From Lactobacillus kullabergensis (lineage in GTDB: Bacteria; Bacillota; Bacilli; Lactobacillales; Lactobacillaceae): a DNA stretch of 64,000 nt. Made by a program: the position numbers and the translations under genes. The stretch lies in contig NZ_KQ033870.1 in assembly GCF_000967195.1 (NCBI RefSeq), positions 1 through 64,000 of the forward strand. The letters are read 5' to 3'. The notes under the pieces were generated by a model, which was not told where the DNA came from, did no database searches, and was given only the letters and a program-made list of their open reading frames with translations. Positions 22,625-56,575 of this stretch are shown here, in pieces; the stretch's first letter is position 1; the number at the start of each line of letters is the position of its first letter.

Positions 22625-22628
22625 AGTA

Positions 22629-25710: not shown

Positions 25711-25715
25711 ATGAT

Positions 25716-27109: not shown

Positions 27110-27164
27110 CTTGATTATATCAATAAATTCAGTTTGAAAAAGCACTGCTAACCAGCATATAATT

Positions 27165-27192
27165 AAGGAGTATCACATTAGTACTCCTTTTT
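27165..27192 (+). terminator. Terminator between the excisionase-like gene and the integrase
   Basis: AAGGAGTA pairs with TACTCCTT around TCACATTAG and is followed by TTT. It separates integrase expression from the mobilisation operon. Confidence 0.7.
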
Positions 27193-27207
27193 AATTAGGA
27201 GAAACAA

Positions 27208-39237: not shown

Positions 39238-39515
39238 TGTTATTTTTTCCTTGCTATAACTTGCTCAAATTTCCCTTATTTTAACATGCAAAATGATTCA
39301 AAAAATTTGGACTCTTTACCTTAATTATCAGATAAAAGAGAGACAAAAATTTCTCTTTTTTTTTAGGCTAATTTGATCTAAAAGTAAAATTTTTTTAAAA
39401 AATTTCAATGTTATATTTAGTGTGATTGAAAAAGAATAACTATTTTAAGTTTGGAAAGGAGTAGAAAAATAAGTTAGAAATTGTAAAAGTAATAAAAGAT
39501 AGAAGGGATATATTA
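39238..39515. other. Divergent control region of the PTS operon
   Basis: 278 bases. A weak hairpin AGAGA/TCTCT followed by a T run lies at 39341-39366. No clear -24/-12 (sigma-54) promoter and no cre site seen. GGAAAGGAG at 39456 is an orphan ribosome-binding-site-like word without a following gene. Confidence 0.4.
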
Positions 39516-40813: not shown

Positions 40814-41655
40814 TGGAAGAAGAAAATATTAAGCCAGAAATTAAGTCTAAAACCACAGAAAGACTGACTAAAAAAGAACTTAATCGCATATGGTGGCGCT
40901 TTGCATGTTCCACTCCGGCTGCAGTTTCATGGGAAAAACTAATTGGAATGCAATTTCCTTGGTCTTTAATTCCTCTGTTTAAAAAGTACTATAACAAGGC
41001 TGGTCAAATTGATGGGATGAAAAGACATGCTACTTTTTATAATACAGAAACAGTCTTTGGCTTTGTTATTCCAGGCATTGTAACAGCAATGGAAGAGCAA
41101 AAAGCAATAAATCATAATGTTGACAATGAGGTTATTGAGACAACTAAAATCAGTCTAATGGGTCCCATGGCAGGTATCGGTGACGCGATGAATCCAGGGT
41201 TAATAATCCCGTTGCTTTTATCTATTGCAATTTCTTTTAGCAAAAACAATAGTCCATTTGGTGCATTATTTTATATGATTGCATACCCACTTGTAGTAAC
41301 AATAATTATGCGTTTCTTATTTAAAAAAGGATATGAATTAGGCGTTAATGGTATCAACGTTTTAATAGGTGAAAAGGCTAATAAAATCAAAGATACTCTA
41401 ATTTTGTTTGGCACTATTATTATGGGAGGAGTTGCTGCCAGCTACGTTAATCTACCGTTAAAATTAACTATTCCTAGTGGCAATGATCGAATTAAAGTTG
41501 AAAATTTGTTAAATGGCGTTTTCCCTAAGTTAGTACCATTACTTCTAGTGATCGGGACTTGGTATTTGATGAAGAAAAAGAAAATTAGCACATTAAAAAT
41601 GATAATTATATATATTATTGCTATTTTTGCTCTTTCATTTATCGGAGTAGTTTAA
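40813..41655 (+). CDS. PTS mannose/sorbose family EIID
   Basis: 280 residues. Family blocks: KLIGMQFPWSLIPLFKKYY near the start, FYNTETVFGFVIPGIVTAMEE and ISLMGPMAGIGDAMNPGLIIP, then C-terminal membrane helices. Partner of EIIC in the sugar channel. Preceded by GAGGAGG. Confidence 0.92.
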   Translation: MEEENIKPEIKSKTTERLTKKELNRIWWRFACSTPAAVSWEKLIGMQFPWSLIPLFKKYYNKAGQIDGMKRHATFYNTETVFGFVIPGIVTAMEEQKAINHNVDNEVIETTKISLMGPMAGIGDAMNPGLIIPLLLSIAISFSKNNSPFGALFYMIAYPLVVTIIMRFLFKKGYELGVNGINVLIGEKANKIKDTLILFGTIIMGGVAASYVNLPLKLTIPSGNDRIKVENLLNGVFPKLVPLLLVIGTWYLMKKKKISTLKMIIIYIIAIFALSFIGVV

Positions 41656-41711
41656 AAAGGCAAATATTGTATCTACTATGTCATGTAAAGTAAAAGTAAC
41701 GGAGGAAATTC

Positions 41712-42104
41712 GTGAAAGTCTTGATATTATCGCACGGAAGTTTAGCAAAGGGATTATATGAAGCTTGTAATATGATTGTTGGAAAAATGGACTTTCTTAG
41801 CTACCTTGGATTAGATAATCAAGGATTAGAGGACTTTAATCAAAGAATTAAATTATACCTAAATAAAAATAAAAATAAAAAAATTTGTTTTCTATTCGAT
41901 TTAAAATATGGCACGCCTTACAATCAAGTTTTAATTCAACTACTTAATTATAAAAATATACAGTATCAGATAATAACTGGGGTAAATTTACCTATTGTGC
42001 TTACGTTGTGTATGCAACTTTTATGTAGTGAAAATGAAGATGTTGACTTAAAAAAGATAGTCAATGATAGTAAAAATTCAATTGAAATTAGTGAAAGTAA
42101 ATAG
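41712..42104 (+). CDS. PTS mannose family EIIA
   Basis: 130 residues with the phospho-His in LILSHGSLAKGLYEA (near residue 8) and a DLKYGTPYNQ block. Takes phosphate from HPr and gives it to EIIB. It lies after IID with its own GGAGG site. Having EIIA in the operon contrasts with the second mannose-type PTS at 45731. Confidence 0.85.
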   Translation: MKVLILSHGSLAKGLYEACNMIVGKMDFLSYLGLDNQGLEDFNQRIKLYLNKNKNKKICFLFDLKYGTPYNQVLIQLLNYKNIQYQIITGVNLPIVLTLCMQLLCSENEDVDLKKIVNDSKNSIEISESK

Positions 42105-42116
42105 AAAGGAATAATA

Positions 42117-43241
42117 ATGAATAATGTTCTGATTATTGGAGCCGGAAAGCTAGGAAAAGGTTTTATCGGTGAAGCTTTTGAAAAAGCAAAATGGAACGTA
42201 ACTTTTTTGGATAAAGATCCAAAAGTGATTAAGAAATTAGCAGAAGGATCTTATCAAGTTGATATTTCTACTTCAGATAAGGTTTATACAAGAGTAGTTA
42301 AGAACTATCAACAAATTTTAACTTCTGATGCACATGATGAAATTGATAGTTTTCTTGCTAGCGATTTAGTTATGATACCAGTGTATCCAGAAGACTTAAA
42401 AGATGTGTTCAAATACTTAATAATTGATTTTAAAAAAATGATGGAGGAAAAACCAGACAAGAAACTAGATATTATTTTGTTGACTAATAAAATTTATTTA
42501 GTAAGTAAAATTAAAAAGTTCTTGAGTGAGAATGTAGATCCAGATTTAAATAGTTGGTTAGAGACACATATTTTTATTCATGATGCGATTATTCGTAGAT
42601 CGACTAGTGCCGATTCTAATTATGCTTTAAAACTTAACAGCATGGCTGTTGCATCTCTGCTCATTGAAAAGCCTTTGCATGTAGACTTATCTAAAGTTGA
42701 TTGGATGGAACCAATTGAAAATGTTCCAACTCTTAAAGAGGTAAAAATTTATGGGATTAATGGTCCCCATGCAGCTACTGCATTTTTCGGTTGGTATAAG
42801 AACTATAAAACAATTCCTGAAGCCCAATCGGATCATGAAATTCAAGAGTTTATTAAATGTATCAATGAAGAAATATACAATGTATGTCAGAAAGAATTTA
42901 ACTTAACTACTGCTGAATATGATCATTTGACCAAATTACCCTCTCTTAAGCAAGAAGTGCCAGATCCTATTAAGAGGGTTGCTTATGATCCGCTACGTAA
43001 ACTTTCTATTAATGACCGCCTTTGCGGACCGATTAGATTGAGTGAAAAATATGGTTTGGACAATGAGTGCTTGATTAAGGCAGTTGCCTTAGGACTTAAA
43101 TATAATGATGAGGATGATCCTAAGTCTCAAGAAATGCAGGAGATGATAAAAACAAAAGGAGTTCTTACTGCAATTAAAGAAATTACGGGTCTGGACGATA
43201 ACTGTGCTAACAAAATCTTAGACCAATATGAAAAGCTATAA
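42117..43241 (+). CDS. Mannitol-1-phosphate 5-dehydrogenase-like polyol dehydrogenase
   Basis: 374 residues, close to the usual 380. N-terminal Rossmann fold with GAGKLGKGFIGEA (7-19). The polyol dehydrogenase active-site pattern K-x4-N-x2-H is present as KIYGINGPH (Asn215, His218), followed by AATAFFG. The C-terminal block YDPLRKLSINDRLCGPI mirrors MtlD. It should oxidise a hexitol phosphate to the ketose phosphate. Last gene of the PTS operon, 12 bases after EIIA, implying that the PTS brings in a sugar alcohol. Not necessarily mannitol. Confidence 0.82.
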   Translation: MNNVLIIGAGKLGKGFIGEAFEKAKWNVTFLDKDPKVIKKLAEGSYQVDISTSDKVYTRVVKNYQQILTSDAHDEIDSFLASDLVMIPVYPEDLKDVFKYLIIDFKKMMEEKPDKKLDIILLTNKIYLVSKIKKFLSENVDPDLNSWLETHIFIHDAIIRRSTSADSNYALKLNSMAVASLLIEKPLHVDLSKVDWMEPIENVPTLKEVKIYGINGPHAATAFFGWYKNYKTIPEAQSDHEIQEFIKCINEEIYNVCQKEFNLTTAEYDHLTKLPSLKQEVPDPIKRVAYDPLRKLSINDRLCGPIRLSEKYGLDNECLIKAVALGLKYNDEDDPKSQEMQEMIKTKGVLTAIKEITGLDDNCANKILDQYEKL

Positions 43242-43482: not shown

Positions 43483-45054
43483 ATGATTTACCATAACTAT
43501 TCACATTTAAAATTCTTTTGGCTAAATGTTTTCGGTTTGATATACAGTACTTTAAATATCTTTGCTGCTTATATGCTTAGCAATTTGATTAATATGGCAA
43601 CTAAGAGACAATTTTCAGTCTTACCTTCTTTAGTGACGCAGATTATAGTAGCGCTGACTTTAATCTTAATTTCAGGCTTACTATTTAATTACTTAAAAAC
43701 CGATGCAGTTAAGCAGATTAACACTAAGTTGAGAACTAAAGTGTTAAAGGGGATGCTGCTAAATAAAGAAGAAGATAGTGCTAATTTAGGTTTTTTAACT
43801 AACGACTTTAAGTTATTAGAAACTAACCGTTATGAAGCTGAAATTGAAATTCTGATCTATACTTATACCGTTATTTTGGCGCTGGGTTATGCTTTATATT
43901 TAAATTGGTTTGTTACCTTGATTTATTTCGTGGGCTCAGCAATCCCTACAATCGTGTCCAACTTTTTTCAAAAACCAATTCAAAAGGCTTCAGGTGATTG
44001 GACTAAGGCTAACGACAAGTATGTCAGCCAAACCAAAAACATTTTAGCTGGCACCAGTACTTTTAATTTATACGGCGAGCAAGACAATGCTGTTAAGCAA
44101 AATAAGAGTGCCGTTGAACGCCTGGAAGAAAAACTGGCCAAAATGAATGTGCTGAATAATAATACTAATACCTACCTTAATATTATCGCGATTGCCAGTG
44201 CATTTTTACTACCATTTGCTTTTGGGACATTATTGGTAGTCAATGGTCAAATAACATTAGGAGCATTATTTGCCATCACTCAGCTTTCTAATTCTTTTGT
44301 TAATCCTATCCTGCAAATTTTAAATGAACGAAACAATTTATCTACCACTAAGGGTATCGTTAACAAGATCAATCAATTTATTGCTAAAGGTGAGCAAAAG
44401 CCGCAAAACGGTGTTGCTACTGATGACTTTAAGCAATTAGAAGTGAAAAATCTGACTTTAAAACGGCAGGATAAAGAATTAGCTAGTCAAATTAATTTTG
44501 CAGTTGCAAAAGGACAAAAGGTTGCGGTAATTGGACCTTCTGGCTCTGGTAAATCCACCATGCTCCAATATTTAATGTATGGCGATTATGGTCAGGCACA
44601 AGAAGAATTGCTTAATCAAAAGGCCGTTAAACCTGGTACTTTTACTAATTTGTTTGCATATTCAAGCCAAAGCGCGGTCATCTTTGCCGACTCATTGTGG
44701 TTTAATCTTACTTTGGGTGCAGACATCCCCTTAGAAGAAGTAACAGCAGTTTGTGATCATTTAGAACTGGGACAGCTGGTTAAAGAAAAAGGTTTTGACT
44801 ATCAATTAGGTGATAATGCGGACCAATTATCCGGTGGACAATTAGCACGAATTGAACTGGCAAGGGCTATCTTAGCCAAACGACCAATTTTATTACTGGA
44901 CGAAGTCAATGCATCATTGGACAAGGCAACTTCTCAGGCAATTCATGACTACTTGTTTGCGTCTAACTTCACTTTCATTGAGGTTATTCACCACTATGAA
45001 CCGGCAGAATTAAAACGTTATGATGCCGTAATTGACTTTAATGATTATGTTTAG
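43483..45054 (+). CDS. ABC exporter, fused membrane and ATPase domains
   Basis: 523 residues: an N-terminal six-helix transmembrane domain (about 1-290) and a C-terminal ATPase with Walker A GPSGSGKST, signature LSGGQ and Walker B ILLLDEVNASLD. Paralogue of the exporter at 56576 (both have TNDLK-type and LYGEQ/LYDAQ-type blocks). Half-transporter, probably a homodimer, of the drug/peptide exporter type. Substrate unknown. The ribosome-binding site is GAGGGAG. Confidence 0.85.
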   Translation: MIYHNYSHLKFFWLNVFGLIYSTLNIFAAYMLSNLINMATKRQFSVLPSLVTQIIVALTLILISGLLFNYLKTDAVKQINTKLRTKVLKGMLLNKEEDSANLGFLTNDFKLLETNRYEAEIEILIYTYTVILALGYALYLNWFVTLIYFVGSAIPTIVSNFFQKPIQKASGDWTKANDKYVSQTKNILAGTSTFNLYGEQDNAVKQNKSAVERLEEKLAKMNVLNNNTNTYLNIIAIASAFLLPFAFGTLLVVNGQITLGALFAITQLSNSFVNPILQILNERNNLSTTKGIVNKINQFIAKGEQKPQNGVATDDFKQLEVKNLTLKRQDKELASQINFAVAKGQKVAVIGPSGSGKSTMLQYLMYGDYGQAQEELLNQKAVKPGTFTNLFAYSSQSAVIFADSLWFNLTLGADIPLEEVTAVCDHLELGQLVKEKGFDYQLGDNADQLSGGQLARIELARAILAKRPILLLDEVNASLDKATSQAIHDYLFASNFTFIEVIHHYEPAELKRYDAVIDFNDYV

Positions 45055-45088
45055 GATATGGTTTCATATAAAAAATATTATGGTAAAT

Positions 45089-45127
45089 AAAAAGCTTACT
45101 TCTTTTTACAAAAAGTAAGCTTTTTTG
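45089..45127. terminator. Bidirectional terminator
   Basis: AAAAAGCTTAC and GTAAGCTTTTTT around a 15-base loop between convergent genes. Confidence 0.85.
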
Positions 45128-45168
45128 TATGTATATAAAATCATTAACTGAACTTTTTGGCAGCATCT

Positions 45169-45564
45169 TTATTTAATTTCCTCAATAATCAGACCACTCC
45201 GGAAATTAAAAATTAATTCAATAAACAAAAAGATTAAAAAGATAATAATTGCTGAAACATTTTGTGAAAAAGGGACATAGCTTTTAATCATAGGCGGAAT
45301 TAATAATAAAGCAGCAATCATAACAGCTATTAAGCCTGCTGATTTTGGATTCGGAATAACTTTATAATGAGCGTCAGTATTATTAATAATCATTTTGGCT
45401 GAGCGATTTAATAGGCCTTGAGTTAGTTGCAGCGTGTCCCCTTTTTTTAAATTTAATTTTAAAGCATAGCCAGCCGCAATACCTCCTACTCTTAAACCGT
45501 TAACTATTACAGTTGTGGGTTTGCCCATTGAAATATTACTTTTTGATCGTTGAACTGTAATCAT
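45169..45564 (-). CDS. Unknown protein with two C-terminal membrane helices
   Basis: 131 residues: a soluble N-terminal part of about 75 residues (VIVNGLRVGGIAAGYALKLN, beta-rich, PEGA-like) and two helices near 77-95 and 103-122. The soluble part is probably cytosolic or surface-exposed depending on topology. Divergent from the PTS operon at 45731. Family not recognised. Confidence 0.6.
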   Translation of the reverse strand: MITVQRSKSNISMGKPTTVIVNGLRVGGIAAGYALKLNLKKGDTLQLTQGLLNRSAKMIINNTDAHYKVIPNPKSAGLIAVMIAALLLIPPMIKSYVPFSQNVSAIIIFLIFLFIELIFNFRSGLIIEEIK

Positions 45565-45654
45565 ACCGTTACACTTTCTTTAATAATAGATGTTTAAGAT
45601 TAGCTTATTAATAAAACAGGTTAATGTCAATCTTGTTTACTAAAAAAAATTATG

Positions 45655-45683
45655 TTTACAAAACAAAATATATAAACTATAAT
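45655..45683 (+). promoter_or_regulatory. Promoter of the second mannose-family PTS operon
   Basis: -35 TTTACA (45655-45660) and -10 TATAAT (45678-45683), spacing 17. A direct repeat TGTTTAC (45634 and 45654) overlaps the -35 and may be an operator. Confidence 0.75.
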
Positions 45684-45698
45684 TTTGGTGTAAGTAAA

Positions 45699-45712
45699 TG
45701 TAAGCGATAACA
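45699..45712 (+). promoter_or_regulatory. Perfect CcpA-binding cre site
   Basis: TGTAAGCGATAACA fits TGWAANCGNTNWCA at every position and lies just downstream of the -10, close to the ribosome-binding site. Confidence 0.85.
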
Positions 45713-45730
45713 AGAAGGAGGTAATGAATT

Positions 45731-46222
45731 GTGCAGTTAGTTAATGTGAGAGTTGATAGCCGTTTGATTCATGGTCAAGTGGCTCGTGTATGGACTGGGC
45801 AATTAGGTGCAGAACGCTTAATGGTAGTTGGCGATAAAGTATCTAAGGATGACTTGGAAAAAACAGCTTTAAAATTAGCTCGTCCCACTCAAGCAGCTTT
45901 AAGTATTTTGCCACCAGATCGTGCAAGTAACAATATTGTTCAAGGACGCTATGCTGACCAAAAAATATTTATTATTACTCGTGAACCAGAGGCTCTGGTT
46001 AAGATGGTCGACGCAGGTGTACCAATTAAAGAAGTTAATGTTGGTAACTTGCCAAGTGGTGAAGGCAGACTGCAATTGTTCAAGAGCGTGGGAGTTAATG
46101 ACGAAGAAATAAAGGCTTTTAAGGAACTTGATGCTCGGGGAGTAAAGCTTTATCACCAGATGGTGCCAAACGATCCTAGAGAAGACTTTATGTCTGAATT
46201 AAATAAACGGATGGAGAAATAA
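45731..46222 (+). CDS. PTS mannose/sorbose family EIIB (second system)
   Basis: 163 residues starting at GTG with AAGAAGGAGG upstream. The phospho-His is in VRVDSRLIHGQVARVW near residue 15. First gene of an operon with IIC and IID; no EIIA gene is present here. Under the perfect cre site, so repressed while preferred sugars are available. Confidence 0.92.
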   Translation: MQLVNVRVDSRLIHGQVARVWTGQLGAERLMVVGDKVSKDDLEKTALKLARPTQAALSILPPDRASNNIVQGRYADQKIFIITREPEALVKMVDAGVPIKEVNVGNLPSGEGRLQLFKSVGVNDEEIKAFKELDARGVKLYHQMVPNDPREDFMSELNKRMEK

Positions 46223-46224
46223 TA

Positions 46225-47058
46225 ATGAATTCATTGAGTGTAGTTCAAATAATTTTGCTGTCTTTGTTTGCTTTCTTCCAAATCAATGAAATTATCACAG
46301 TTGGTATTGGTTTTGGTAACCCAGTTAACGCTGGATTAATTGCAGGACTAATTGTTGGTGATATGAAATTAGGTTTGGCCGTAGGAGCAACATTGCAGTT
46401 AATGATATTAGGTGTCGGTACCTTTGGTGGTGCTTCGATTCCTGATTATGCCACCGGAGCAATCATAGGTACTGCAATTGCGCATATTTCAGGAAAAGGC
46501 ATTAACTATGGTATTGGTGTTGCTATTCCAGTGGGTCTATTGATGGTGCAACTTGATATTTTGGCTCGTTTTGCTAATACCTATTTTGCACACAGAATAG
46601 ATAAGGCAATCGATCGTAACGATGATAAAGCTGTTGTACGAAATAGTCTTTATGGGGCTATTCCGTGGGGGCTTTCAAGGTCGGTTCCTGTACTGTTAGT
46701 GTTGATTTTTGGTGAAGCATTTGTCAAAAATGTACTGAACTATATGCCACAGTGGCTAATGGGTGGATTAAAATCTGCCGGAACTATGTTACCAGCAGTT
46801 GGTATTGCTATCTTAATGCATTACTTGCCTATTAAGAAATTTGGTGCATACATGATTTTTGGCTTTGTAGCCGCTGCTTATTTAAACGTACCGATGCTTG
46901 GTGTTGCACTTGTCGGAGTCGGCTTTGCCATTAATCATTATAATTCTATCATTCATGACAAAAACCAGTCTGGTAGCGGTAGCAATGGCTTAGATACAGA
47001 AAAAGCTGCTGAAATGGGTGTTGATGATAAAGGAGTAATTACCGGTGATGAAGAATAA
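46225..47058 (+). CDS. PTS mannose/sorbose family EIIC (second system)
   Basis: 277 residues with the family's membrane plan (GFGNPVNAGLIAGLIVGD, then GTFGGASIPDYATGA). C-terminal 25 residues are hydrophilic. Starts two bases after EIIB and overlaps EIID. Pairs with IID to form the channel. Confidence 0.92.
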   Translation: MNSLSVVQIILLSLFAFFQINEIITVGIGFGNPVNAGLIAGLIVGDMKLGLAVGATLQLMILGVGTFGGASIPDYATGAIIGTAIAHISGKGINYGIGVAIPVGLLMVQLDILARFANTYFAHRIDKAIDRNDDKAVVRNSLYGAIPWGLSRSVPVLLVLIFGEAFVKNVLNYMPQWLMGGLKSAGTMLPAVGIAILMHYLPIKKFGAYMIFGFVAAAYLNVPMLGVALVGVGFAINHYNSIIHDKNQSGSGSNGLDTEKAAEMGVDDKGVITGDEE

Positions 47059-47881
47059 TACTACTGAAAAAACTACGACAACACAGAGTCATAAGTTAAC
47101 TAAAAAAGATATTCGTAGCGCTAACTTACGCTGGATTTTTACCTCCGCACTAAGCTGGAACTACGAAACTATGATGGCTCCAGGCTATGTTGGTTCACAA
47201 ATGCCAATTTTACGTAAGTTATATGGTGATAAGCCTGAAGATATGAAGAAAATGATGCGTGTGCAGTCTGAGTACTTTAATACCAGTCCGCATATGGGCT
47301 CCATTATCCAAGGTGTCGACATTGCTCTGGAAGAAAAAGAGGGAATTGATTCAGTTGATGGTGTAAGAGGTATTAAAACTGGACTTATGGGACCATTTGC
47401 TGCTGTAGGTGACACCTTATTAGGTACCGTTCAATCCACTATTTTTGGTGCGATTGCATCATACATGGCTCTTAAAGGCAACCCGTTTGGTGCTATTTTA
47501 TGGATGGTTGCATTAGGCGTTATCTACATTTGGGCTTATACTTGGATGCCATTTGCCTATAAACAAGGGGTCAACCTGGTTACTTCAATGAGCTCTAAGC
47601 TTAACGCATTGACTGATTCAGCAACCCTGCTAGGAGTGACGGTTGTAGGAGCTTTGATTCCAACTGTTATTACTTTAAAAATCCCGTTTATCTTTAGAGC
47701 TGGAAAAGTTTCGATGAAGCTGCAGGATATTTTTAATCAGATTATGCCATCGCTTCTGCCAGTTTTACTAGTTGCCTTTATTTATTGGCTGCTTGATCGT
47801 AAACATATGAACTCTACTAGAGCAACTTGGTTTGTTCTAATATTGGCTATTATTTTATTCAATTTAAAAGTTGTTGCATAA
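47045..47881 (+). CDS. PTS mannose/sorbose family EIID (second system)
   Basis: 278 residues. Family blocks: SWNYETMMAPGYVGSQMPIL, YFNTSPHMGSIIQGVDIALEE, and GLMGPFAAVGDTLLGTVQST. The start is GTG 47045 or ATG 47048; AAGGAG at 47029 suits either. The operon then ends with a hairpin at 47954. Confidence 0.92.
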   Translation: MMKNNTTEKTTTTQSHKLTKKDIRSANLRWIFTSALSWNYETMMAPGYVGSQMPILRKLYGDKPEDMKKMMRVQSEYFNTSPHMGSIIQGVDIALEEKEGIDSVDGVRGIKTGLMGPFAAVGDTLLGTVQSTIFGAIASYMALKGNPFGAILWMVALGVIYIWAYTWMPFAYKQGVNLVTSMSSKLNALTDSATLLGVTVVGALIPTVITLKIPFIFRAGKVSMKLQDIFNQIMPSLLPVLLVAFIYWLLDRKHMNSTRATWFVLILAIILFNLKVVA

Positions 47882-47953
47882 AACATAGAAATTTAAAAAT
47901 AATCAGATTATCTGCTGAAAAAAGCCTGTTGCAAAATTAAGCGGGTAAATTGA

Positions 47954-47996
47954 GAAAACGCGGATGTATTGACAATAATGATACAACCGTATTTTC
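47954..47996 (+). terminator. Hairpin after the second PTS operon
   Basis: An imperfect 16-base stem (GAAAACGCGGATGTAT / ATACAACCGTATTTTC). The tail is T-rich but not a clean run, so termination may be partial and allow read-through into the LacI gene. Confidence 0.5.
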
Positions 47997-48111
47997 TTTG
48001 ATTTACAAAAAATATTTGATAGCATAATTGCAAAAATGCTGTAATAGCAGATTGTGTTTAGATTATCAGGTTCTAAAGTTTATATTTTTAAAACGAATTT
48101 TAATAGCACCT

Positions 48112-48122
48112 GTTATAATAAC
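48112..48122. promoter_or_regulatory. Palindrome over the -10 of the LacI-family gene
   Basis: GTTAT-A-ATAAC overlaps TATAAT (48114-48119), 25 bases before the gene; possible autoregulatory site. A -35 is not clear. Confidence 0.4.
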
Positions 48123-48147
48123 CAAATATGAAAGATGAGAAAATAAA

Positions 48148-49158
48148 ATGGCTAATATCAGACAGGTAGCTCAGTTAGCAGGTGTTTCGGCTGGTACAGT
48201 TTCACGAATCTTAAATAATGACGCTTCCCTAAGTGTAACTGATCAAACGCGTTTAAAAGTTTTGGCAGCTACTAAAAAGTTAAATTATCATACAAAAAAT
48301 AAAAGTAAAAAGAGTCCCGTCATTGGCGTGCTGACAACTATGAATTTAGACCAAGTAGCAGAATATACGTATTATCAGCAAGTAAAGCAGGGGATTATTG
48401 AAGAACTTAAAAAAGAGAAAATGACGTTAAGTTCGATCTACTATTTGAATAAATCTTTAGATAATTCATTTTGGGATGGACTGTATTATTGGGACGGCGT
48501 GATTGTTATCGGCGGCTTGTCCGAATCAGCCATTAGCGAACTAAAAAAATTAAACTCTAATATCGTCATTATTGAAGCAAGATATAAAAATAATTCCGTC
48601 AAGCTGGTTAATGCTAATTTAACTGCCGGAGTAAAAGAAGCTTTAACACAACTAGAAAAATTTGCTCAAACCAATATTGTATATGTTGGTGGTCCCCGTT
48701 ATATGACTAATTTGCAAGGAGAAAAAACTCAAGCAAAAGGTGAGGTTCGTTTAAATTGCTATCGGGAGTGGATGAAACTGCATGATCAAGATGAATGTTC
48801 AATTCTTACTCCGGGTTGGAGCATTGAAGATGGCGTCCAGGCGGGTAAAGAAATTGCACAATCACCTACTTTACCCAAAGGAATTTTAGCTGGAAATGAT
48901 CAATTGGCAATTGGAATAATGCAGGAATTGCATACAAAAGGTTTTCATGCTCCTGCCGATTACCATATTATTGGGTTCGATAATATTCAAATGGCGCAAT
49001 ATTATATTCCCAGATTGTCATCAGTTTCTGTTCCGGAAAAAGACCTAGGTATAACTGCTGTCCATTTAATTAGAGAAGACATAATAGAAAAAAAGACGCG
49101 CGCCGCTACAACGTTATTAGAAGTTAAACTAATTTTGCGAGAAAGTACTGGTAATTAG
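48148..49158 (+). CDS. LacI/GalR-family regulator
   Basis: 336 residues. N-terminal HTH (MANIRQVAQLAGVSAGTVSR, then ILNNDASLSV) and a periplasmic-binding-protein-like effector domain (GVLTTMN, LAGNDQLAIGIMQELH, GFDNIQMAQYY, SSVSVPEKDLG). Closest in plan to EbgR/MsmR types that respond to oligosaccharides. Only 14 bases separate it from the two DUF4832 genes, so it probably senses their substrate or product and controls this locus and the upstream PTS. Confidence 0.87.
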   Translation: MANIRQVAQLAGVSAGTVSRILNNDASLSVTDQTRLKVLAATKKLNYHTKNKSKKSPVIGVLTTMNLDQVAEYTYYQQVKQGIIEELKKEKMTLSSIYYLNKSLDNSFWDGLYYWDGVIVIGGLSESAISELKKLNSNIVIIEARYKNNSVKLVNANLTAGVKEALTQLEKFAQTNIVYVGGPRYMTNLQGEKTQAKGEVRLNCYREWMKLHDQDECSILTPGWSIEDGVQAGKEIAQSPTLPKGILAGNDQLAIGIMQELHTKGFHAPADYHIIGFDNIQMAQYYIPRLSSVSVPEKDLGITAVHLIREDIIEKKTRAATTLLEVKLILRESTGN

Positions 49159-49172
49159 TTTGGGAGGAAAAA

Positions 49173-50600
49173 ATGGAAAATTATTATCCTAAGCAGTTAA
49201 GTGGAGATCAAACGAAGATTTTACTCACAAACCCTGATCGTGGTTTTCGCTTTGAAGTTTATTTGGATGTAAAAACGGGTAAGAGCATATATGAATATGC
49301 GGATGAAGATGCTATTGCTGCGTTAAAAAGAGAAGCATCACTGTATACAGACGATCAGCCACGAATAGTGCAGGTTTATTTTTACTTAACAGGTTACCAG
49401 CATGATCCACTGGATGCACAAGCTTTTAACCATATGAGTGCATTTTTTGAGGAACTGGCTAAATTAAATTTAAAAGCATTGCTTCGTTTTGCTTATGTTT
49501 CTGAAGATAAAAGGCCTTATAGACAGGCTCCTAGTGTGCAGAGAGTAGAGCAGCACTTGGAACAGTTATCTGGCTGGCTCCACGAACATCGCAAGCAAAT
49601 TCATGCCTTACAGGCAGGCATTATTGGACCTTGGGGAGAATGGTCTGCCCATGCTCGTGAGACAACTGATGAATCAGCAATTTTACATAGTTTGCTGTTA
49701 AATTCTCCTCAAGATCTAACTGTACAAGTACGTTATTTAAATATAAAAAATCGTAATATAGATGTTGCTGAAAAAGAGAATGAACAACGAATTGGTTTTC
49801 ACGATGACTTTTTAATTGGTATTGGACATGAGTGGAATACAGCGGGTAAAAATCATGATTCGAATGAGTATCAACAATTAATAAGAGATTCAAAAACGAC
49901 AATCGTTGATGGCGAAAGTATCTGGCTATTTGCCAATCCTATGTATTTAAAAACAAAATACGTAGATCCTGAATTGACCACACAAAGAATGGTTGAAAAT
50001 CATTTTACTACCTTAAGTATTGCGCATAATTACCATGAGATAAAAACTAATTCATATTATAATGTGACCTTAGAAAATGAATTAAAAAGAACTGGCAAAC
50101 CAGAGGGGCTTAAATTTCCTCAAATGGGCTCATTTGAATATTGGAAGCATGTTCCTGTTACGCCTGATTTATTAGATAAAAAGCATTGGCCGTATCAAAA
50201 ATCATGGTTTTTGGATCAAAAGAATCAGACAATTGAACGTAATTATTTTGAATATTTGCGAGATTATTTAGGCTACCGTTTAGAAGTTAAACAAATTAGT
50301 TATAACTCCGCTTTAAATGCTGCCGTTTATCTCACACTGAAGAATACCGGCTTCGCCGCTCCTCTGGCTTTGAAACAAATAGAGTTATTTGCTGTAGATC
50401 AACAGCAGAATATTATTGGTAAGGCTTTCGTTGAAAAAAGTGCTTTACAAACTAACCGAGAAATAAATACGGTTATCCCATTAATAAAACATAATCAACC
50501 TGATAAAGTCGGAGTTAGGCTGCAGGCTACTAATAACAGCACAGCACGTCTTGCCAATGTTTGTCAGTGGGTAGATGGTATTAATTGGTTTAAATTGTAA
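49173..50600 (+). CDS. DUF4874/DUF4832 glycosidase-like protein, cytosolic
   Basis: 475 residues without signal peptide. The N-terminal DUF4874-like part opens with LTNPDRGFRFEVYLDVKTG; the middle has GIIGPWGEWSAHARE and GFHDDFLIGIGHEWNTAG; the C-terminal about 110 residues look like a beta domain. The plan suggests a TIM-barrel carbohydrate-active enzyme with the Glu of WGEW as a candidate catalytic residue. It aligns along its whole length with the next gene, which is secreted. No activity is established that I can name. Cotranscribed with the LacI regulator. Confidence 0.75.
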   Translation: MENYYPKQLSGDQTKILLTNPDRGFRFEVYLDVKTGKSIYEYADEDAIAALKREASLYTDDQPRIVQVYFYLTGYQHDPLDAQAFNHMSAFFEELAKLNLKALLRFAYVSEDKRPYRQAPSVQRVEQHLEQLSGWLHEHRKQIHALQAGIIGPWGEWSAHARETTDESAILHSLLLNSPQDLTVQVRYLNIKNRNIDVAEKENEQRIGFHDDFLIGIGHEWNTAGKNHDSNEYQQLIRDSKTTIVDGESIWLFANPMYLKTKYVDPELTTQRMVENHFTTLSIAHNYHEIKTNSYYNVTLENELKRTGKPEGLKFPQMGSFEYWKHVPVTPDLLDKKHWPYQKSWFLDQKNQTIERNYFEYLRDYLGYRLEVKQISYNSALNAAVYLTLKNTGFAAPLALKQIELFAVDQQQNIIGKAFVEKSALQTNREINTVIPLIKHNQPDKVGVRLQATNNSTARLANVCQWVDGINWFKL

Positions 50601-50614
50601 CTGGGGAATAACTC

Positions 50615-52081
50615 ATGAAAAAAATATTTAAAAAGCTAACTTTAATAACTGCATTTTTAGGGTTACTTTTATTTCAAAATCAGCAAAATTTGTGTTCAGT
50701 TAAGGCTGCAACTATTTCTGAATATGACGAAAAGCCTCTAACAGAGCAGCAAAATCAAGAAATGGCTAACAATAGCGATCGTGGCTTTCGCTTAGAGTTA
50801 AATTTAAATGTTAAAACCGGCATGGGACTATGGGGTAATGCGGATAAAACAGGAATAGCGCAAATGCAAAATGCGATAGCTACATTTGCTGATGATAATC
50901 CGCGACTTACACAAGTATACTTTTATCTGACTGATTATAAAGATAAGCCACTAGATCAAACTGCCTTTAATAATATGGATCAATATTTCCAAAAGTTGAA
51001 GCAAAACCATTTACAGGCTGTATTACGTTTTGCCTATATTTGGGATGATGCTCATCCTAAATCTCAGGAACCTACAACTGAGCAAGTGGTTGCACATATT
51101 AAGCAACTAGCTCCCTGGATTGCTCAGCATCGTGATCAAATAGCTAATTTACAAGCTGGATTTATTGGAGCTTGGGGAGAATGGGACAGCGGAGCCCGTA
51201 GCCGTATGAATGAAAAAGCAATTCTGCAGGCATTATTAGCCAATACTCCTAAAGATTTATTTATCCAAGTCAGATATTACAATATCAAGTCACGAAATGT
51301 TGATCCCCAGAGTTCTGACTGGCAAAGAGTTGGATTTCATGATGATTACTTGATTGGTCGCCCTCATGTGTGGAATACTGCAGGTGCAGATCCTAATTCT
51401 GCTGAATGGAAGGCGATGGCAGAACAATCTCAGACTGTACCGGTTGACGGTGAAATGATTTGGGGTTCTGCCAATGCATCAGACAATAACGGTCAGTTAA
51501 TTTCTGCACCACTGATTGCTCACCGTCTTGCAGTTCATCATTTTACTTCATTGAGTATAGCTCATAATTACAAAGAAGATGGCAAAGACTATTCTTTGAG
51601 TGCTTGGAAACGGCAACTAGTAACGCCTGCACTTTTAGACCAATATAAATTACCATATCAAAAATCATGGTTTAAAGATACTAATGATAATGAAATAAGT
51701 CGTTCTTGGTATGAATATATTAGGGATTATCTGGGTTACCGCTTAGCAGTTAAAGATATTAGCTATCAAGCAGATGGGCAGAATATTGACTATCAAGTTA
51801 ATCTAACTAATTATGGCCTGGCTGCTCCAGTTTTAATTAATAACGCAGAACTGGTATTACTGGATGAATCTAAAAATGTAGTGGCTGCTAAGGACGTAAC
51901 TGATATTGCTCATTTGCAGTCTTTGCAAATTTTACCAATCAAATGGCAGATAGATAAAACCTTAGTCAGTCAGGCAAAATATTTAGCCTTTAAATTTACT
52001 GGTTACAGTAATACGGGAAACCGCCTGGCAAACAATATAGCTTTTGATGATGGGTATAATTATTTGCTGACGCTTAAATAA
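50615..52081 (+). CDS. DUF4874/DUF4832 glycosidase-like protein, secreted
   Basis: 488 residues. Signal peptide at 1-32 (basic start, LITAFLGLLLF, likely cleavage after VKA). The mature part repeats the plan of the preceding gene: NSDRGFRLELNLNVKTG, GFIGAWGEWDSGAR, GFHDDYLIGRPHVWNTAG, GEMIWGSANASD, and the C-terminal beta domain from about 365. No LPXTG or cell-wall-binding domain, so probably released or loosely bound. Together with its cytosolic twin and the upstream PTS it suggests outside trimming, import and inside cleavage of one glycan. Confidence 0.77.
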   Translation: MKKIFKKLTLITAFLGLLLFQNQQNLCSVKAATISEYDEKPLTEQQNQEMANNSDRGFRLELNLNVKTGMGLWGNADKTGIAQMQNAIATFADDNPRLTQVYFYLTDYKDKPLDQTAFNNMDQYFQKLKQNHLQAVLRFAYIWDDAHPKSQEPTTEQVVAHIKQLAPWIAQHRDQIANLQAGFIGAWGEWDSGARSRMNEKAILQALLANTPKDLFIQVRYYNIKSRNVDPQSSDWQRVGFHDDYLIGRPHVWNTAGADPNSAEWKAMAEQSQTVPVDGEMIWGSANASDNNGQLISAPLIAHRLAVHHFTSLSIAHNYKEDGKDYSLSAWKRQLVTPALLDQYKLPYQKSWFKDTNDNEISRSWYEYIRDYLGYRLAVKDISYQADGQNIDYQVNLTNYGLAAPVLINNAELVLLDESKNVVAAKDVTDIAHLQSLQILPIKWQIDKTLVSQAKYLAFKFTGYSNTGNRLANNIAFDDGYNYLLTLK

Positions 52082-52097
52082 ATAGTTGTAAAAAGAC

Positions 52098-52143
52098 AAA
52101 AACCAATAAATTACGCTTTAAACGATGATTTATCGGTTTTTTT
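52098..52143 (+). terminator. Terminator of the LacI-DUF4832 operon
   Basis: AAAACCAATAAAT and ATTTATCGGTTTT around a 16-base loop, then T run. Confidence 0.8.
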
Positions 52144-52350
52144 ATTTATGATAAAAATTAAAGGCTAAATTCACCTGTTTTCTCAATCCTAATTATCATA
52201 TATGCAATTGTGCTGAGTTTATTATAAATTCATGATTATAAATGGTACTTAAGAAACTAGCTTTGCTTTTAGCTATAATAGAGCTAAATAAAATATGATA
52301 AAATCATTGTTAATTACTTTTCATTTTTAGTAAATCAGGTAGGCATTTCC

Positions 52351-53469
52351 ATGAAGAGAACTTATTTTAAGGCAAATTTTACTATTGCACGCAAATCAAA
52401 GAAAAATATTCTGTTAATGGGCGCTTTGGTTTTATTCATGGTTCTCTTTGTACTAGTGGTTGAAGCTCAAAACTTGGGAGATAACTACCGTCAGTGGCGC
52501 TCATACTATGATTCTCTTGAGGTTAATATCAGTTATTTTGACAGCAGTTTATTACGCAAACAAGAATATAAAGAGACTTATGACAATTTAAATGCCCAAG
52601 AAGGTTGTATTTTCAGTTTGCAAAATGGGGAAGTTTTAAGTGATCCCCAAACTTATTTAGACGGATCGATCACGTTATTTCAAACCATGTTAGACGGCTA
52701 CCGCAATAATTATCTGGGAGCCAGCACATTGAATGTTCCACCCAAGTATCAATTGCATCAAAGATTAGTTACCTATAAATATCTTTATCGTCATCATATA
52801 CCTGCAGTTATGAATTCAAAGGCATCAGCAACTTATTTAATCTATATTCTCAATTTTGTGGCTATTTTTATTTTCTTTTATATTTTGCTTATTTCTAATG
52901 ATGTGTGGATGGTTAAGTTGGATCATGATACGGTTTTGCGCAATATCCCTTATCGTGTAGAAGATGAGGTTAAAGGCAAAACCATGATCAATTTGGCTTT
53001 AGCCTTGGGTCCTTTACTTATTGGACTAGTTGGTGCATATCTTTTTGCCGGCTTACGAAATGGCTTTCGCAGTTTAAATTACCCTAACGTTTTTTACTTT
53101 AATAAAATAATAGCAATCCCAGTCTGGTTGGATTGTTTGCTCTTTTTACTTTATACCGCAGTATTGGTAGTATTTGTGACCAGTTTAACTTTACTTCTTA
53201 ACCAGATAACAAAAAATGTATATCTCACTACCTTTATTGGTATTGCTCTATATGTATTAACGTATTTGCCTGCCAAAATGCTTAAATTTATTGCTTGGCT
53301 GCCATCTGCATATTTAAATGTTAATGATGTGCTTAATGGTACTGTGGCAAGTAAAACAGGATTTGCAGGGCTAAACATAGTCACCAGCGGCTGTATCCTA
53401 TTAGTTTGGTCATTTATTTTGATCATCTGGTTCAGACACTTGGTTAATAAAGGAGGTATTGCACGATGA
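52351..53469 (+). CDS. ABC transporter permease, first subunit
   Basis: 372 residues. One N-terminal helix (about 19-38), an extracellular-looking segment of about 120 residues, then about five helices to the C terminus. Lacks recognisable catalytic motifs. First gene of the permease-permease-ATPase operon; it overlaps the next by four bases. Resembles ABC-2-type permeases of bacteriocin-immunity or lantibiotic-protection exporters in plan, but family identity is not certain. Confidence 0.72.
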   Translation: MKRTYFKANFTIARKSKKNILLMGALVLFMVLFVLVVEAQNLGDNYRQWRSYYDSLEVNISYFDSSLLRKQEYKETYDNLNAQEGCIFSLQNGEVLSDPQTYLDGSITLFQTMLDGYRNNYLGASTLNVPPKYQLHQRLVTYKYLYRHHIPAVMNSKASATYLIYILNFVAIFIFFYILLISNDVWMVKLDHDTVLRNIPYRVEDEVKGKTMINLALALGPLLIGLVGAYLFAGLRNGFRSLNYPNVFYFNKIIAIPVWLDCLLFLLYTAVLVVFVTSLTLLLNQITKNVYLTTFIGIALYVLTYLPAKMLKFIAWLPSAYLNVNDVLNGTVASKTGFAGLNIVTSGCILLVWSFILIIWFRHLVNKGGIAR

Positions 53470-54728
53470 AATGGCGTTATTTCCTCTTTCAGTTGAAGGC
53501 TTTTTTGGTTAATCCCAAAAATATTGGATTGTTTATTGCTACTGTGATTATGTCTTTATATTTTAGTCTGGTCAGTGTGCCTAACCGTCAGGTAATTGAA
53601 CAAGTCGATGCCAAGCCTATTAAAAAGGAATATATTGATGATACAGCCTTTCTGAAAGTGGCTATGCAAGAGATTGCTTATTCCAAGAAGCCAGGTTATT
53701 ATTCTATTCCTAGCAAAGGGGCAGTGGACGCTGTCAGTACTTACCCACAGGTCTTATCTTATGATAAAAAAATATTGCGCGCTATAAAGAAAAAAGACTG
53801 GGATGCTTATGCTAAATACGCCAGTGCTCGTTATCAATATATTGACGAGTTAATCTTTGTGGAAGGTAACCAAAACTTTTTGTATCCAGCTGCGTATAAT
53901 CAAAATGATAATTTTAAGCAGGATGGTCATTTTGGCTATCAACGGACGTATCACTTGTATAACGCACTTCTAGCCGGTAAAAAGGATAAGCAAACAGGGC
54001 TGAATAAAAACATTTTGGAAGAGCGCACAACATTACAAGTAATTCAAAACTCACTTTCTGGCTGGGCAGTCTTAATAATGGTAGTGATAGTTTGTTTCTT
54101 TGCTGCGGACATTGTGACTAATGACAGGAAATATTATACGGTCTTGGAAAATATTCCTTTAAGTAAACGCACTATTTTATGGTTGAAAACTGGAGTTGTT
54201 GAAGTAGGGGTTTTGCTTGACTTTGTAGTAGCTGGGATAATTGCTCTTCTTTGTATAACACCTAGATATGGTTTGGGATCATTAAGACTAAATACTGTTG
54301 ATTATTTAGGCAAAATAAACTTCAAAGCAACCTTTAGGACTGAAACACTAGGTATGTATTATTTGCAGTTTATCATTTTTGCAATCATTATTTCGTTTAT
54401 CTTTATCAGGTTAACAATTCTGCTGTCAATCGTTTTGCGTAACGAATATGTTGCCGGCATGCTTAGCAGTCTGTTTGCTATCAGTGCGAAGATGCTTTAC
54501 TTCTCGTTGGGCATGGGCTTTGTTTACCCGTTTTTGGAAAAATGGCCTATGACTTACTTTTCTATCGGTGACAGTATTACCGGCAACTTGGCTTATTTGA
54601 TGGATGCACCCGGATGGGGCTTTACTGCTGGCTTAGGGCCACTCATTTGTCTGGCACTTGTCATTGAAATTTTACTGTTTTTGTTCACGCAAATTAAAAG
54701 CATCCCTTTAGTTAGACGAGGTGATTAA
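53466..54728 (+). CDS. ABC transporter permease, second subunit
   Basis: 420 residues with the same plan as the preceding protein: N-terminal helix (about 15-33), an external segment (about 35-190), and five helices from about 205. It ends just before the ATPase gene. The two permeases likely pair as a heterodimer with the ATPase. Confidence 0.72.
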   Translation: MKWRYFLFQLKAFLVNPKNIGLFIATVIMSLYFSLVSVPNRQVIEQVDAKPIKKEYIDDTAFLKVAMQEIAYSKKPGYYSIPSKGAVDAVSTYPQVLSYDKKILRAIKKKDWDAYAKYASARYQYIDELIFVEGNQNFLYPAAYNQNDNFKQDGHFGYQRTYHLYNALLAGKKDKQTGLNKNILEERTTLQVIQNSLSGWAVLIMVVIVCFFAADIVTNDRKYYTVLENIPLSKRTILWLKTGVVEVGVLLDFVVAGIIALLCITPRYGLGSLRLNTVDYLGKINFKATFRTETLGMYYLQFIIFAIIISFIFIRLTILLSIVLRNEYVAGMLSSLFAISAKMLYFSLGMGFVYPFLEKWPMTYFSIGDSITGNLAYLMDAPGWGFTAGLGPLICLALVIEILLFLFTQIKSIPLVRRGD

Positions 54729-54729
54729 A

Positions 54730-55599
54730 ATGTTAAAAATAAAAGATGTCACATTGGCATTTGGAAAAAACGTTGTTTTAGACGATGTTAACTTGGAATT
54801 TAAGCAGGGCGAGATCGTTGGTCTCGTAGCGCCTAATGGTACTGGTAAGTCGACCTTGATCAACGTTATTTTGCATAATCTGACGCCGCAAAAAGGGTTT
54901 GTTGAATATGAAAATACACGTTATCAAACACAAAAAGACACGATTAAATTACACCAGGAAATCTGCTCGTTTCCTGAACAAAGCGACCTGTTTCCCTTTA
55001 TGACTGGACGGGATCATCTTAATTTATACGCTGATCTTTGGCACAATTCTGAAAAGCCCGTTGAGCAAATAATTACTGACTTGCAAATGGAAAATTACGT
55101 GGATAAGAAAGTACAGACTTATTCTTTAGGGATGAAACAGCGACTTTGTTTTGCAATGGTAGTAGCAGCTGATTCTCCTGTAATGTTGTTAGATGAAGTA
55201 ATGAATGGACTTGATCCACAGAACGTAGCTTTAATTTCACAGATGCTTCTTAAACTAAAGGATGAAAACAAGTTAATCATTATGGCTTCACACCTTTTGT
55301 CTAACTTGCAGCAATATGCTGACAGGGTCTTGTTTATGGGTAAAGGACACATTATTGAAGATCTAGACAATAAAAAGCAAAATAAACGGTATTTAAAGAT
55401 GCAGTCTACCCCTGAAACGACTAAGTTGCTAGCTAATTATGATTACGAAACTTTGCCTAATAACCTGATATTAGTTCCTCTAGAAAAAATTGAGCAGGAT
55501 AAGCTGACGCAACTTATAGCCAGCTTAGTTAGAGCTGATATTCAATACGCAGTTGAAAGAATTGATATCGAAGACTTATTTAATAAATTTTATGATTAG
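54730..55599 (+). CDS. ABC transporter ATP-binding protein
   Basis: About 289 residues: Walker A APNGTGKST, signature YSLGMKQRL (replacing LSGGQ, usual in BcrA/CcmA-like ATPases), Walker B VMLLDEVMNGLD, switch His in MASHLL, and a C-terminal regulatory region. ATG 54730 has GAGGTG upstream; the GTG at 54721 lies inside that site. Stop overlaps the stop of the convergent Rgg gene. Confidence 0.87.
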   Translation: MLKIKDVTLAFGKNVVLDDVNLEFKQGEIVGLVAPNGTGKSTLINVILHNLTPQKGFVEYENTRYQTQKDTIKLHQEICSFPEQSDLFPFMTGRDHLNLYADLWHNSEKPVEQIITDLQMENYVDKKVQTYSLGMKQRLCFAMVVAADSPVMLLDEVMNGLDPQNVALISQMLLKLKDENKLIIMASHLLSNLQQYADRVLFMGKGHIIEDLDNKKQNKRYLKMQSTPETTKLLANYDYETLPNNLILVPLEKIEQDKLTQLIASLVRADIQYAVERIDIEDLFNKFYD

Positions 55600-56441
55600 T
55601 TTAAAGCTTTAACCTGATTTAATATTTGCAGAAAATAAGCAGCCGTAGTTTGCATGTCCATATTAGTTAAAAAATGAATGATTGAGACAGCTGCTTCATC
55701 ATTGGCAGTATTGTGAAATGTAAGAATTGCATTTAAAAATTTGCGCCCAACAATTAACAACATTTCGTTATCTGGTAAGTCAATCTGGTTTATTCGTGTT
55801 AGCAGTTTATCTGCAAATTTAAACTGACTATTTGTAATTAAACCAATTACAGCTTCAAATAGAGCTGCTATACCAAAATGAAATGTACCTTCTCCTGCCT
55901 TTTTAATAAAAGAAATATTGCTGATAACCTGAACAGAGATTTGGTAAATAATTCTAGGACTAATAATAGGTATAACATTGGCAAACAGTGAAAGAAATTC
56001 ATGGCCCCAAACAGTTATTTTACTTAACTGATGGTTTAATTCGTTTTGCTGGGCTATAGGAAAGATGTTGTGTTGTGAAGTTTTATAATACAAACTGTAG
56101 GCTATTGCTGCATAATCGAGGTCAAAAGGATCTTGACTTGACTCGTATTTATTTAATGCCGCTTGAGCCAGTTTTTTCAAATAGTTTTTGTCGTGGTTAT
56201 TCCAAGATTCTTCTAAAATAAGCGCAATATGATCCTGCGGGTCGAGTTTAGCAAGCGCAATATATTCAGTTGCCGATAAACTAATTCTTTCGCACAGTTT
56301 TAACACCCGGTTAAAATCCATATGGCCCTGATCATTTTCCCAGCGAGAAAGCATTTGAATGGAACAAATGCCTTTAGCTGCTTCTTTAAGCGTAATATGC
56401 TGTTTTTTCCTTAATTGTTTAAATTCAATTCCTGACTGCAT
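55596..56441 (-). CDS. Rgg/GadR/MutR-family transcriptional regulator
   Basis: 281 residues: N-terminal Xre-type HTH (KQLRKKQHITLKEAAKGICS, then MLSRWENDQGHMDF) and a helical C-terminal region of about 210 residues, the standard Rgg plan. Such regulators often bind short peptide pheromones. It is divergent from the exporter at 56576 across a long palindrome and convergent with the ABC operon, so either may be its target. AAAAAGGA precedes the ATG. Confidence 0.82.
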   Translation of the reverse strand: MQSGIEFKQLRKKQHITLKEAAKGICSIQMLSRWENDQGHMDFNRVLKLCERISLSATEYIALAKLDPQDHIALILEESWNNHDKNYLKKLAQAALNKYESSQDPFDLDYAAIAYSLYYKTSQHNIFPIAQQNELNHQLSKITVWGHEFLSLFANVIPIISPRIIYQISVQVISNISFIKKAGEGTFHFGIAALFEAVIGLITNSQFKFADKLLTRINQIDLPDNEMLLIVGRKFLNAILTFHNTANDEAAVSIIHFLTNMDMQTTAAYFLQILNQVKALN

Positions 56442-56472
56442 GCTATTTTGTCCTTTTTAAGATATTATGCAC

Positions 56473-56496
56473 TTTTTTCTCATATATGAGAAAAAA
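56473..56496. promoter_or_regulatory. 24-base perfect palindrome between rgg and the exporter
   Basis: TTTTTTCTCATA and TATGAGAAAAAA are exact inverse copies, abutting. It sits midway in the divergent promoter region and is the best candidate Rgg operator. Confidence 0.6.
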
Positions 56497-56575
56497 AAGC
56501 CAGAAAAATAATTCATGCTTTAATATGTTTTAAAAAATATCTTAACCATTTTAATAATAAAGAAGGAGTAGAAAA

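Follow-up and report, generated by a model that had tools for sequence, protein, structure and literature searches.

A candidate glycan-utilisation locus of Lactobacillus kullabergensis joining a mannose-family PTS, a LacI regulator and two predicted TIM-barrel DUF4874/DUF4832 proteins

DUF4832 proteins are encoded by an accessory gene next to the pel operons of streptococci and clostridia (PMC7112168), and a 2025 report describes SIR_1591, a DUF4832 protein of Streptococcus intermedius, as a glycoside hydrolase (GH) which disrupts aggregates held by Pel rich in N-acetylgalactosamine (GalNAc; PMC12345266). A cellulosomal DUF4874-DUF4832-dockerin protein and a capsule-cluster DUF4832 protein have also been listed (PMC7480376 and PMC6258164 respectively). 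In the gnb operon of Lacticaseibacillus casei, which serves galacto-N-biose, GnbG showed little activity towards disaccharides that carry no phosphate, and it may naturally act on the phosphorylated ones (PMC6109692). Here we analyse a locus of Lactobacillus kullabergensis in a window of 64,000 nucleotides (positions 1 to 64,000 of contig NZ_KQ033870.1, assembly GCF_000967195.1), in which genes for a mannose (Man)-family phosphotransferase system (PTS) and a LacI-family regulator are followed by those of two DUF4874/DUF4832 proteins, one cytosolic and one secreted.

The locus is real and co-inherited. Its general type, a regulator with a Man-PTS and a glycosidase, is known, and the enzyme family at its centre is a little-known one. 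Among the papers listed by full-text searches of the open-licence PMC literature, including those for DUF4832, DUF4874 and SIR_1591, none was seen to describe it. With slightly better than even confidence, we propose that it is a glycan-utilisation module with a gnb-like pathway running from outside to inside, in which a glycan containing galactose (Gal) or GalNAc would be cut by the secreted protein, imported by the PTS and cut again, as a phosphorylated product, by the cytosolic protein.

Gene content and joint inheritance

The PTS operon includes genes for IIB (45731-46222), IIC (46225-47058) and IID (47045-47881), all of the sorbose/mannose superfamily according to Pfam (PTSIIB_sorb, EII-Sor and EIID-AGA), which places the system in the Man family. 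IIB and IIC are 2 bases apart and IIC and IID overlap by 14 bases. Beyond a spacer of 266 bases (47882-48147) lie the gene of the LacI-family regulator (48148-49158), in which Pfam recognises the helix-turn-helix and the periplasmic-binding-like domain, and then, at spacings of 14 and 14 bases, those of the cytosolic (49173-50600) and the secreted protein (50615-52081). The six genes are on the forward strand and have a G+C content of 35.9-40.7% (34.8% for the window). A perfect catabolite-responsive element (cre; ATGTAAGCGATAACAA, 45698-45713, forward strand) stands before IIB. No NCBIfam model passes its cut-off for the regulator, nor for the sugar specificity of the PTS. The two last proteins match DUF4874 (PF16173) and DUF4832 (PF16116) with 116.4/74.7 and 142.4/100.7 bits (curated cut-offs 30.1/29.2) and share 40% identity (E 3e-122); a crude hydropathy test finds a leader only on the second. 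A sequence-only reading of the window, which preceded this analysis, had described the PTS operon under a perfect cre, the tightly spaced regulator and protein pair and the single signal peptide, and open reading frames (ORFs), Pfam, the cre scan and the leader test agree with it throughout.

DUF4832 was found in five of the 150 genomes searched (G000, G028, G039, G062 and G064), all belonging to the genus of the window. Orthologues of EIIC (93-100% identity) and of LacI (92-100%) occur in exactly the same five of the 75 genomes of this genus, the EIIC gene being cut by a contig end in G028 and present as two pieces with a stop in G039; the remaining EIIC matches in the genus (E 1e-60) have at most 57% identity. 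The five genomes are close kin and may represent a single acquisition. Independent support for joint inheritance is provided by Lacticaseibacillus chiayiensis (L024; L numbers denote loci of relatives), where the order is small divergent gene, IIB, IIC, IID, IIA, LacI, cytosolic type, secreted type, the same as in the window plus IIA. More generally, DUF4874/DUF4832 homologues number at least 987. Few genomes of the order have DUF4832 (10 of 395), and among 397 genomes of the family DUF4874 occurs in five, in one of them below cut-off; two copies are present in G000 and G398 only. A plasmid collection gave five distant records, none lactobacillar. The secreted protein shares 99% identity with its counterpart in L. 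laiwuensis F551-2 and 92% with the one in L. melliventris ESL0393; these names suggest a bee-gut origin.

Relatives in which each part occurs alone lead us to see the locus as a secreted module joined to a PTS-linked cytosolic one. Enterococcus alishanensis (L031) has the cytosolic type only, in a cluster with an AgaS-family gene (below cut-off), the tagatose-bisphosphate aldolase LacD, a GH35 beta-galactosidase, a GntR regulator, IIC, IID, IIB and a SIS-domain protein; its EIIA gene ends 30 bases before the enzyme gene. In Clostridia (L025, L026, L027 and L028) and in an Enterococcaceae genome (L147), the secreted type is followed immediately by a related secreted gene or stretch, and the locus DNA examined has no match to the Man-PTS of the window. 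This downstream gene (L024:11471-13093, L025:11393-13009, L147:10916-12355), which includes F5/8 type C domains in L147, likely encodes a carbohydrate-binding partner; it is present in L. chiayiensis and absent from the window.

It could be argued that the PTS and the pair are separate units which are neighbours by chance, since the 266-base gap between IID and LacI has promoter-like matches of its own, the secreted type lacks a Man-PTS match in the examined DNA of the Clostridia and the Enterococcaceae genome, and a clostridial locus (L033) has several DUF4832 paralogues, again with no Man-PTS match. We regard this as very improbable in view of the joint presence or absence across 75 genomes (the five being close kin), the same order in another genus and the Enterococcus cytosolic DUF4832 protein, which accompanies a Man-PTS in a different order. 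A motif screen for multiple copies in 82 loci, strict enough to miss known cases such as L022 and L034, found more than one DUF4874/DUF4832 protein in five (L021, L023, L024, L033 and L083).

Predicted folds and an insert in the cytosolic clade

Both proteins are confidently predicted to be TIM barrels (pLDDT 94.3 and 95.7), with a beta-domain after the barrel. In families of clan GH-A and GH14, one glutamate follows strand 4 and another lies in strand 7. The cytosolic protein has E156 (codon 49638-49640) in the loop after strand 4 and E248 (49914-49916) in strand 7, the secreted protein E189 (51179-51181) and E280 (51452-51454) at the same places, all on the forward strand; E156/E248 are invariant in 101 sequences and E189/E280 in 127. 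Fold matches are to clan GH-A glycosidases (GH5, GH35, GH39 and GH140) and to GH14 beta-amylases, with about 10% identity and template modelling (TM) scores of 0.31-0.38, and no solved structure matches significantly by sequence. In clan GH-A an asparagine usually comes directly before the strand-4 acid/base glutamate; in both proteins this residue is a glycine (W-G-E-W). Both proteins likely function as glycosidases. Both glutamates are also kept (WGEW and GGE) in the five pel-locus DUF4832 relatives compared, among which SIR_1591 itself was not included; the DUF4874 match of these relatives is below cut-off.

We rejected a local duplication as the origin of the pair, since each protein belongs to a different clade. 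The named members of the cytosolic clade are all Lactobacillales, while those of the secreted clade include Lachnospiraceae, Oscillospiraceae and Breznakia.

The cytosolic PTS-type clade alone has an insert in the loop after strand 8 (residues 290-318; 50040-50126, forward strand), which, to judge from the model, would lie on the active-site side of the barrel. More than 25 residues separate the motifs HNY and SxxxW in 15 of 131 sequences, a count in which many of the remaining 116 do not show both motifs. None of these 15 has a leader by the hydropathy test, none of the 88 leader-bearing sequences has the insert, and 28 have neither. In a tree built from 63 selected rows with the insert columns left out and with branch support from a quick method, the 15 insert-bearing rows (28-37 residues) are one side of a branch with support 100, and the other 48 have 4-20 residues in the loop (20 in P0050). 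All loci read in which the insert-bearing cytosolic type accompanies the secreted type adjoin a PTS and LacI (the window, L021, L022, L023 and L024).

Within the insert, E303 is conserved in 15 of 15 sequences, N302 in 14, R306 in 13 and K/R305 in 12. The basic pair is KR at all six PTS-linked loci read (the window, L021, L023, L024, L031 and L047, from three genera; L022 was left out of this comparison), HN at both Schleiferilactobacillus-type loci (L032 of S. perolens and L142, of the same genus by genome groups) and NR in P0040 of L. rhamnosus. At L142 an ABC sugar transporter adjoins the cytosolic-type gene, just after which the contig ends, and at L032 no match to the PTS of the window occurs within 10 kb. 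As the contrast is between two loci of one genus and the rest, the correlation of the basic pair with PTS linkage is only a lead. The insert-bearing clade, its strand-8 loop and the basic-pair pattern are new to this analysis.

Tentatively, and with rather less than even confidence, we suggest that this clade is a new family of 6-phospho-glycosidases, in which the barrel gained a strand-8 loop (S-[FY] ... N-E-L-[KR]-R) that would read the phosphate left by the Man-PTS. Two ancient paralogues would then have been paired so that a polymer is cut outside and a phosphorylated oligomer inside the cell, and the basic pair would be replaced where the importer is not a PTS. If the insert does read phosphate, a single family would show the transition from a glycosidase to a PTS-coupled phospho-glycosidase. 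It is somewhat less probable that the cytosolic enzyme is an ordinary glycosidase acting on a non-phosphorylated sugar, with the PTS importing a monosaccharide and the insert unrelated to phosphate. In keeping with this explanation, the insert-bearing protein is encoded next to an ABC transporter at L142 and lacks a PTS match within 10 kb at L032, and the most constant letters, N302 and E303, are non-basic; the distribution of K-R and H-N and the E. alishanensis EIIA gene so close to that of the enzyme argue against it.

Proposed pathway, substrate and alternatives

In the proposed glycan-utilisation pathway, the secreted DUF4832 enzyme would cut a Gal- or GalNAc-containing glycan outside the cell; the Man-family EIIBCD, with an EIIA from another operon, would import and phosphorylate the short product; and the cytosolic enzyme would split it. 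The resulting hexosamine-6-phosphate or galactose-6-phosphate would enter NagA, AgaS or tagatose-type routes encoded elsewhere. LacI would sense the inducer and CcpA repress via cre.

Pfam reveals no EIIA in the PTS operon, and a degenerate EIIA between IID and LacI was rejected, as the 266-base spacer contains no remnant. Since L. chiayiensis carries EIIA exactly at this place (L024:7056-7475), the Lactobacillus lineage probably lost the EIIA of this operon and uses another one from its genome. The genome has 19 EIIA-profile matches and 14 matches to the L. chiayiensis EIIA; the best of these (82.2 bits), that of an AgaS cluster, is a candidate donor, closely followed by another (79.7 bits). 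PTS paralogues in the genus (48-57% identity), read by ORF at four places, have varied neighbours which give no clue to the substrate. The window contains a second Man-family PTS set (37339-43241; IIB, IIC, IID, then IIA) with a divergent PRD/EIIA-type regulator (PF00874 and PF00359) and a mannitol-1-phosphate dehydrogenase-like gene, whose best NCBIfam match is below cut-off; it is perhaps a sugar-alcohol system.

Genes elsewhere hint at Gal/N-acetylhexosamine glycans, and Gal/GalNAc is our best guess for the substrate class. The genome of the window itself encodes NagA (above cut-off), an AgaS-like protein beside an EIIBCDA set, two LacAB-type isomerases and a LacD-like aldolase. GalK and GalM are near the secreted type in L025, as is GalM in L028. 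The GH35 enzyme of L031 has a tblastn match in eight of 79 loci, that of L046 being about 9.5 kb away. L034 (722-8440, on a clostridial contig) has three tandem leader-bearing DUF4832 genes, GH35 and a fourth, diverged DUF4832 gene. Among 74 hand-picked proteins of the 121 listed neighbours at 23 Bacteroidetes-type loci (SusC-sized and some others were left out), there are matches to SusD (14), GH89 (eight), GH31 (seven), GH16 (five), GH35 (four) and GH123 (three); another profile, that of GH42, is matched by five of the 74, but GH35 proteins give weak matches to it as well. Firmicute neighbours (75 of 107 listed, 16 loci) include GH35 and aldose epimerase (two each), EIIB, EIIC and EIID (two each) and five further DUF4832 proteins. 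GH20, GH84 and similar families do not figure in the family lists, an absence that carries no weight.

The same machinery might instead serve a pollen or plant glycan, such as arabinogalactan or other galactosides, that bears no GalNAc. The named Lactobacillus hosts are L. laiwuensis, L. melliventris and L. apis, the last two of which are studied as honey-bee gut species. In L. melliventris, clusters for PTS and glycan cleavage are reportedly induced by pollen (PMC8456714). The GalK and GalM genes just mentioned and GH35 and GH2 enzymes among the neighbours would also fit. We nevertheless consider this unlikely, given the AgaS-family gene in the Enterococcus cluster, GH89 and GH123 among Bacteroidetes neighbours and the action of SIR_1591 on GalNAc-rich Pel; the accessible part of PMC8456714 does not name this locus.

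A further explanation, which we find quite improbable, is that the pair mainly breaks down the Pel-like matrix of a neighbour or of the cell itself, for dispersal or competition, feeding being secondary. In its favour are the disaggregation of cells by SIR_1591 (PMC12345266), the presence of DUF4832 in pel operons (PMC7112168) and its occurrence here beside pel-type genes, identified by eye, at five loci (L115, L116, L117, L119 and L121; PelG, CotH and DUF4956 of L117 were confirmed by Pfam). However, no pel-type gene was noticed by eye, with no family search, among the ORFs of the window, and a cytosolic paralogue with a PTS and cre suits a role in nutrition.

Several observations count against the proposed utilisation of a Gal/GalNAc glycan. 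The fold matches have the low identity and TM scores given above, and the families matched are mostly beta-acting, while Pel is alpha-1,4-linked. SIR_1591 is a distant relative, its kin matching by profile with a probability of 94%, E 1.5e-07 and 21% identity. EIIA is missing from the operon, the locus in the window has no GalNAc gene, and the AgaS and LacD matches of the genome are below curated cut-offs. Schleiferilactobacillus-type genomes carry the cytosolic enzyme with no PTS seen. At L033 (2802-17626), a GH2 enzyme accompanies three DUF4874/DUF4832 proteins, one with a leader and two without, and neither the PTS nor the LacI of the window has a match there; the strand-8 loop is short in the one leaderless protein in which it was measured. 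We see L033 as another outside/inside set with a different importer, a loose counter-case. The neighbour tallies are hints and not enrichments, because there is no background set. Finally, deletion of SIR_1591 had no phenotype and the protein was assayed by disaggregation only (PMC12345266).

The sequence-only reading, which had already taken the locus for a possible glycan-utilisation system, is thus borne out in part: the predicted barrels with a plausible catalytic pair and the joint inheritance of PTS, LacI and the pair support it as an inference, and overall the support is partial. It had asked for a TIM-barrel or catalytic pocket, and both predicted folds are barrels; it had also asked for a pair that does not occur apart from PTS or LacI neighbours, which holds for the insert-type cytosolic and secreted pair in the loci read and fails for the broader set in L033. 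Its remark that DUF4832 has no nameable function is superseded by the report on SIR_1591 (PMC12345266). It had missed the lack of EIIA, the separate clades to which the two proteins belong and the insert confined to one of them. For a widespread domain of unknown function, the locus offers an enzymatic role beyond Pel loci that can be tested, and it connects the domain with a nutrient pathway of lactobacilli from the bee-gut group, four related species of which are reported to coexist by niche partitioning (PMC8456714); enzymes of the family acting on a GalNAc-rich matrix are of practical interest against biofilms.

Promoter region, surroundings and comparison with known systems

A sigma-70-type promoter match of the PTS operon (45655-45683, forward strand; 11 of 12 positions), just upstream of cre, is the best of 41 in the region (28.8 expected). 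It overlaps, at its -35 box, the 13-base TGTTTACAAAACA (45653-45665, forward strand), which is identical in L. chiayiensis and may be the LacI operator, although the -35 box itself accounts for part of this identity across genera. The motif is not enriched in the window (14 sites with at most two mismatches, 11.3 expected); a partial copy in the IID-LacI spacer is, by eye, not kept in L022 and L023. Perfect cre matches number two in the window (0.09 expected) and those with at most one mismatch six (3.17 expected), which is not unusual. The other perfect cre (15978-15993, reverse strand) is within an MgtC-like gene, named by eye. A perfect cre occupies the same position in L021, L022, L023 and, with different letters, L024. 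No terminator-like site was found in the IID-LacI spacer or after the last gene, nor any structured RNA at Rfam gathering scores in 44500-53000.

Upstream, a divergent gene (45169-45564, reverse strand) encodes a small membrane-type protein of 131 amino acids that has no Pfam family above cut-off and is 44% identical to its counterpart in L. chiayiensis; it is kept beside the PTS in both Lactobacillus and Lacticaseibacillus. Downstream (52351-58174), ABC transporter genes, an opposite-strand Rgg-type regulator and a further ABC exporter, named by eye, form a block kept in L021, L022 and L023 and unmatched at L024. Elsewhere, a dnaA-like ORF (by eye) is at base 1 of the window and a tRNA-Thr with anticodon AGT at 16772-16846 (forward strand); this anticodon would need editing of A34 to inosine, which is unusual for bacteria. 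A large helicase/methylase-type restriction gene (1559 amino acids) followed by FtsK-like, Rep-like and integrase-like genes (17945-28260, by eye) is probably an integrated mobile element.

Among described systems, SIR_1591 and its pel-operon relatives have in common with the present proteins the DUF4832 domain, a TIM barrel (an AlphaFold2 model in their case) and, for the secreted twin, an extracellular location (PMC12345266, PMC7112168). They differ in belonging to a polysaccharide-making operon and in the identity of about 21% to kin, and neither a PTS nor a cytosolic twin is described in the accessible parts of these papers; the DUF4832 genes of the window are not in a pel operon and have PTS, LacI and ABC transporter genes as neighbours. 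Clan GH-A (GH5, GH35, GH39 and GH140) and GH14 resemble both proteins in the barrel and the placement of the two glutamates, and differ in sequence (about 10% identity), the residue before the strand-4 glutamate and the beta-domain after the barrel. The alf cluster of L. casei (AlfB, AlfR and the mannose-class PTS AlfEFG; PMC6109692) is a similarly compact locus of regulator, PTS and glycosidase, but its enzyme is an alpha-fucosidase and the accessible part of that paper mentions no secreted paralogue. The gnb operon of L. casei likewise has a mannose-class PTS and an intracellular glycosidase (PMC6109692). It includes GH35, a deaminase and a deacetylase, none of which is among the ORFs of the present locus, where the PTS has only B, C and D of EIIABCD and where an AgaS-like gene and NagA sit elsewhere in the genome; in their place the locus has the DUF4832 enzymes, LacI and a secreted twin.

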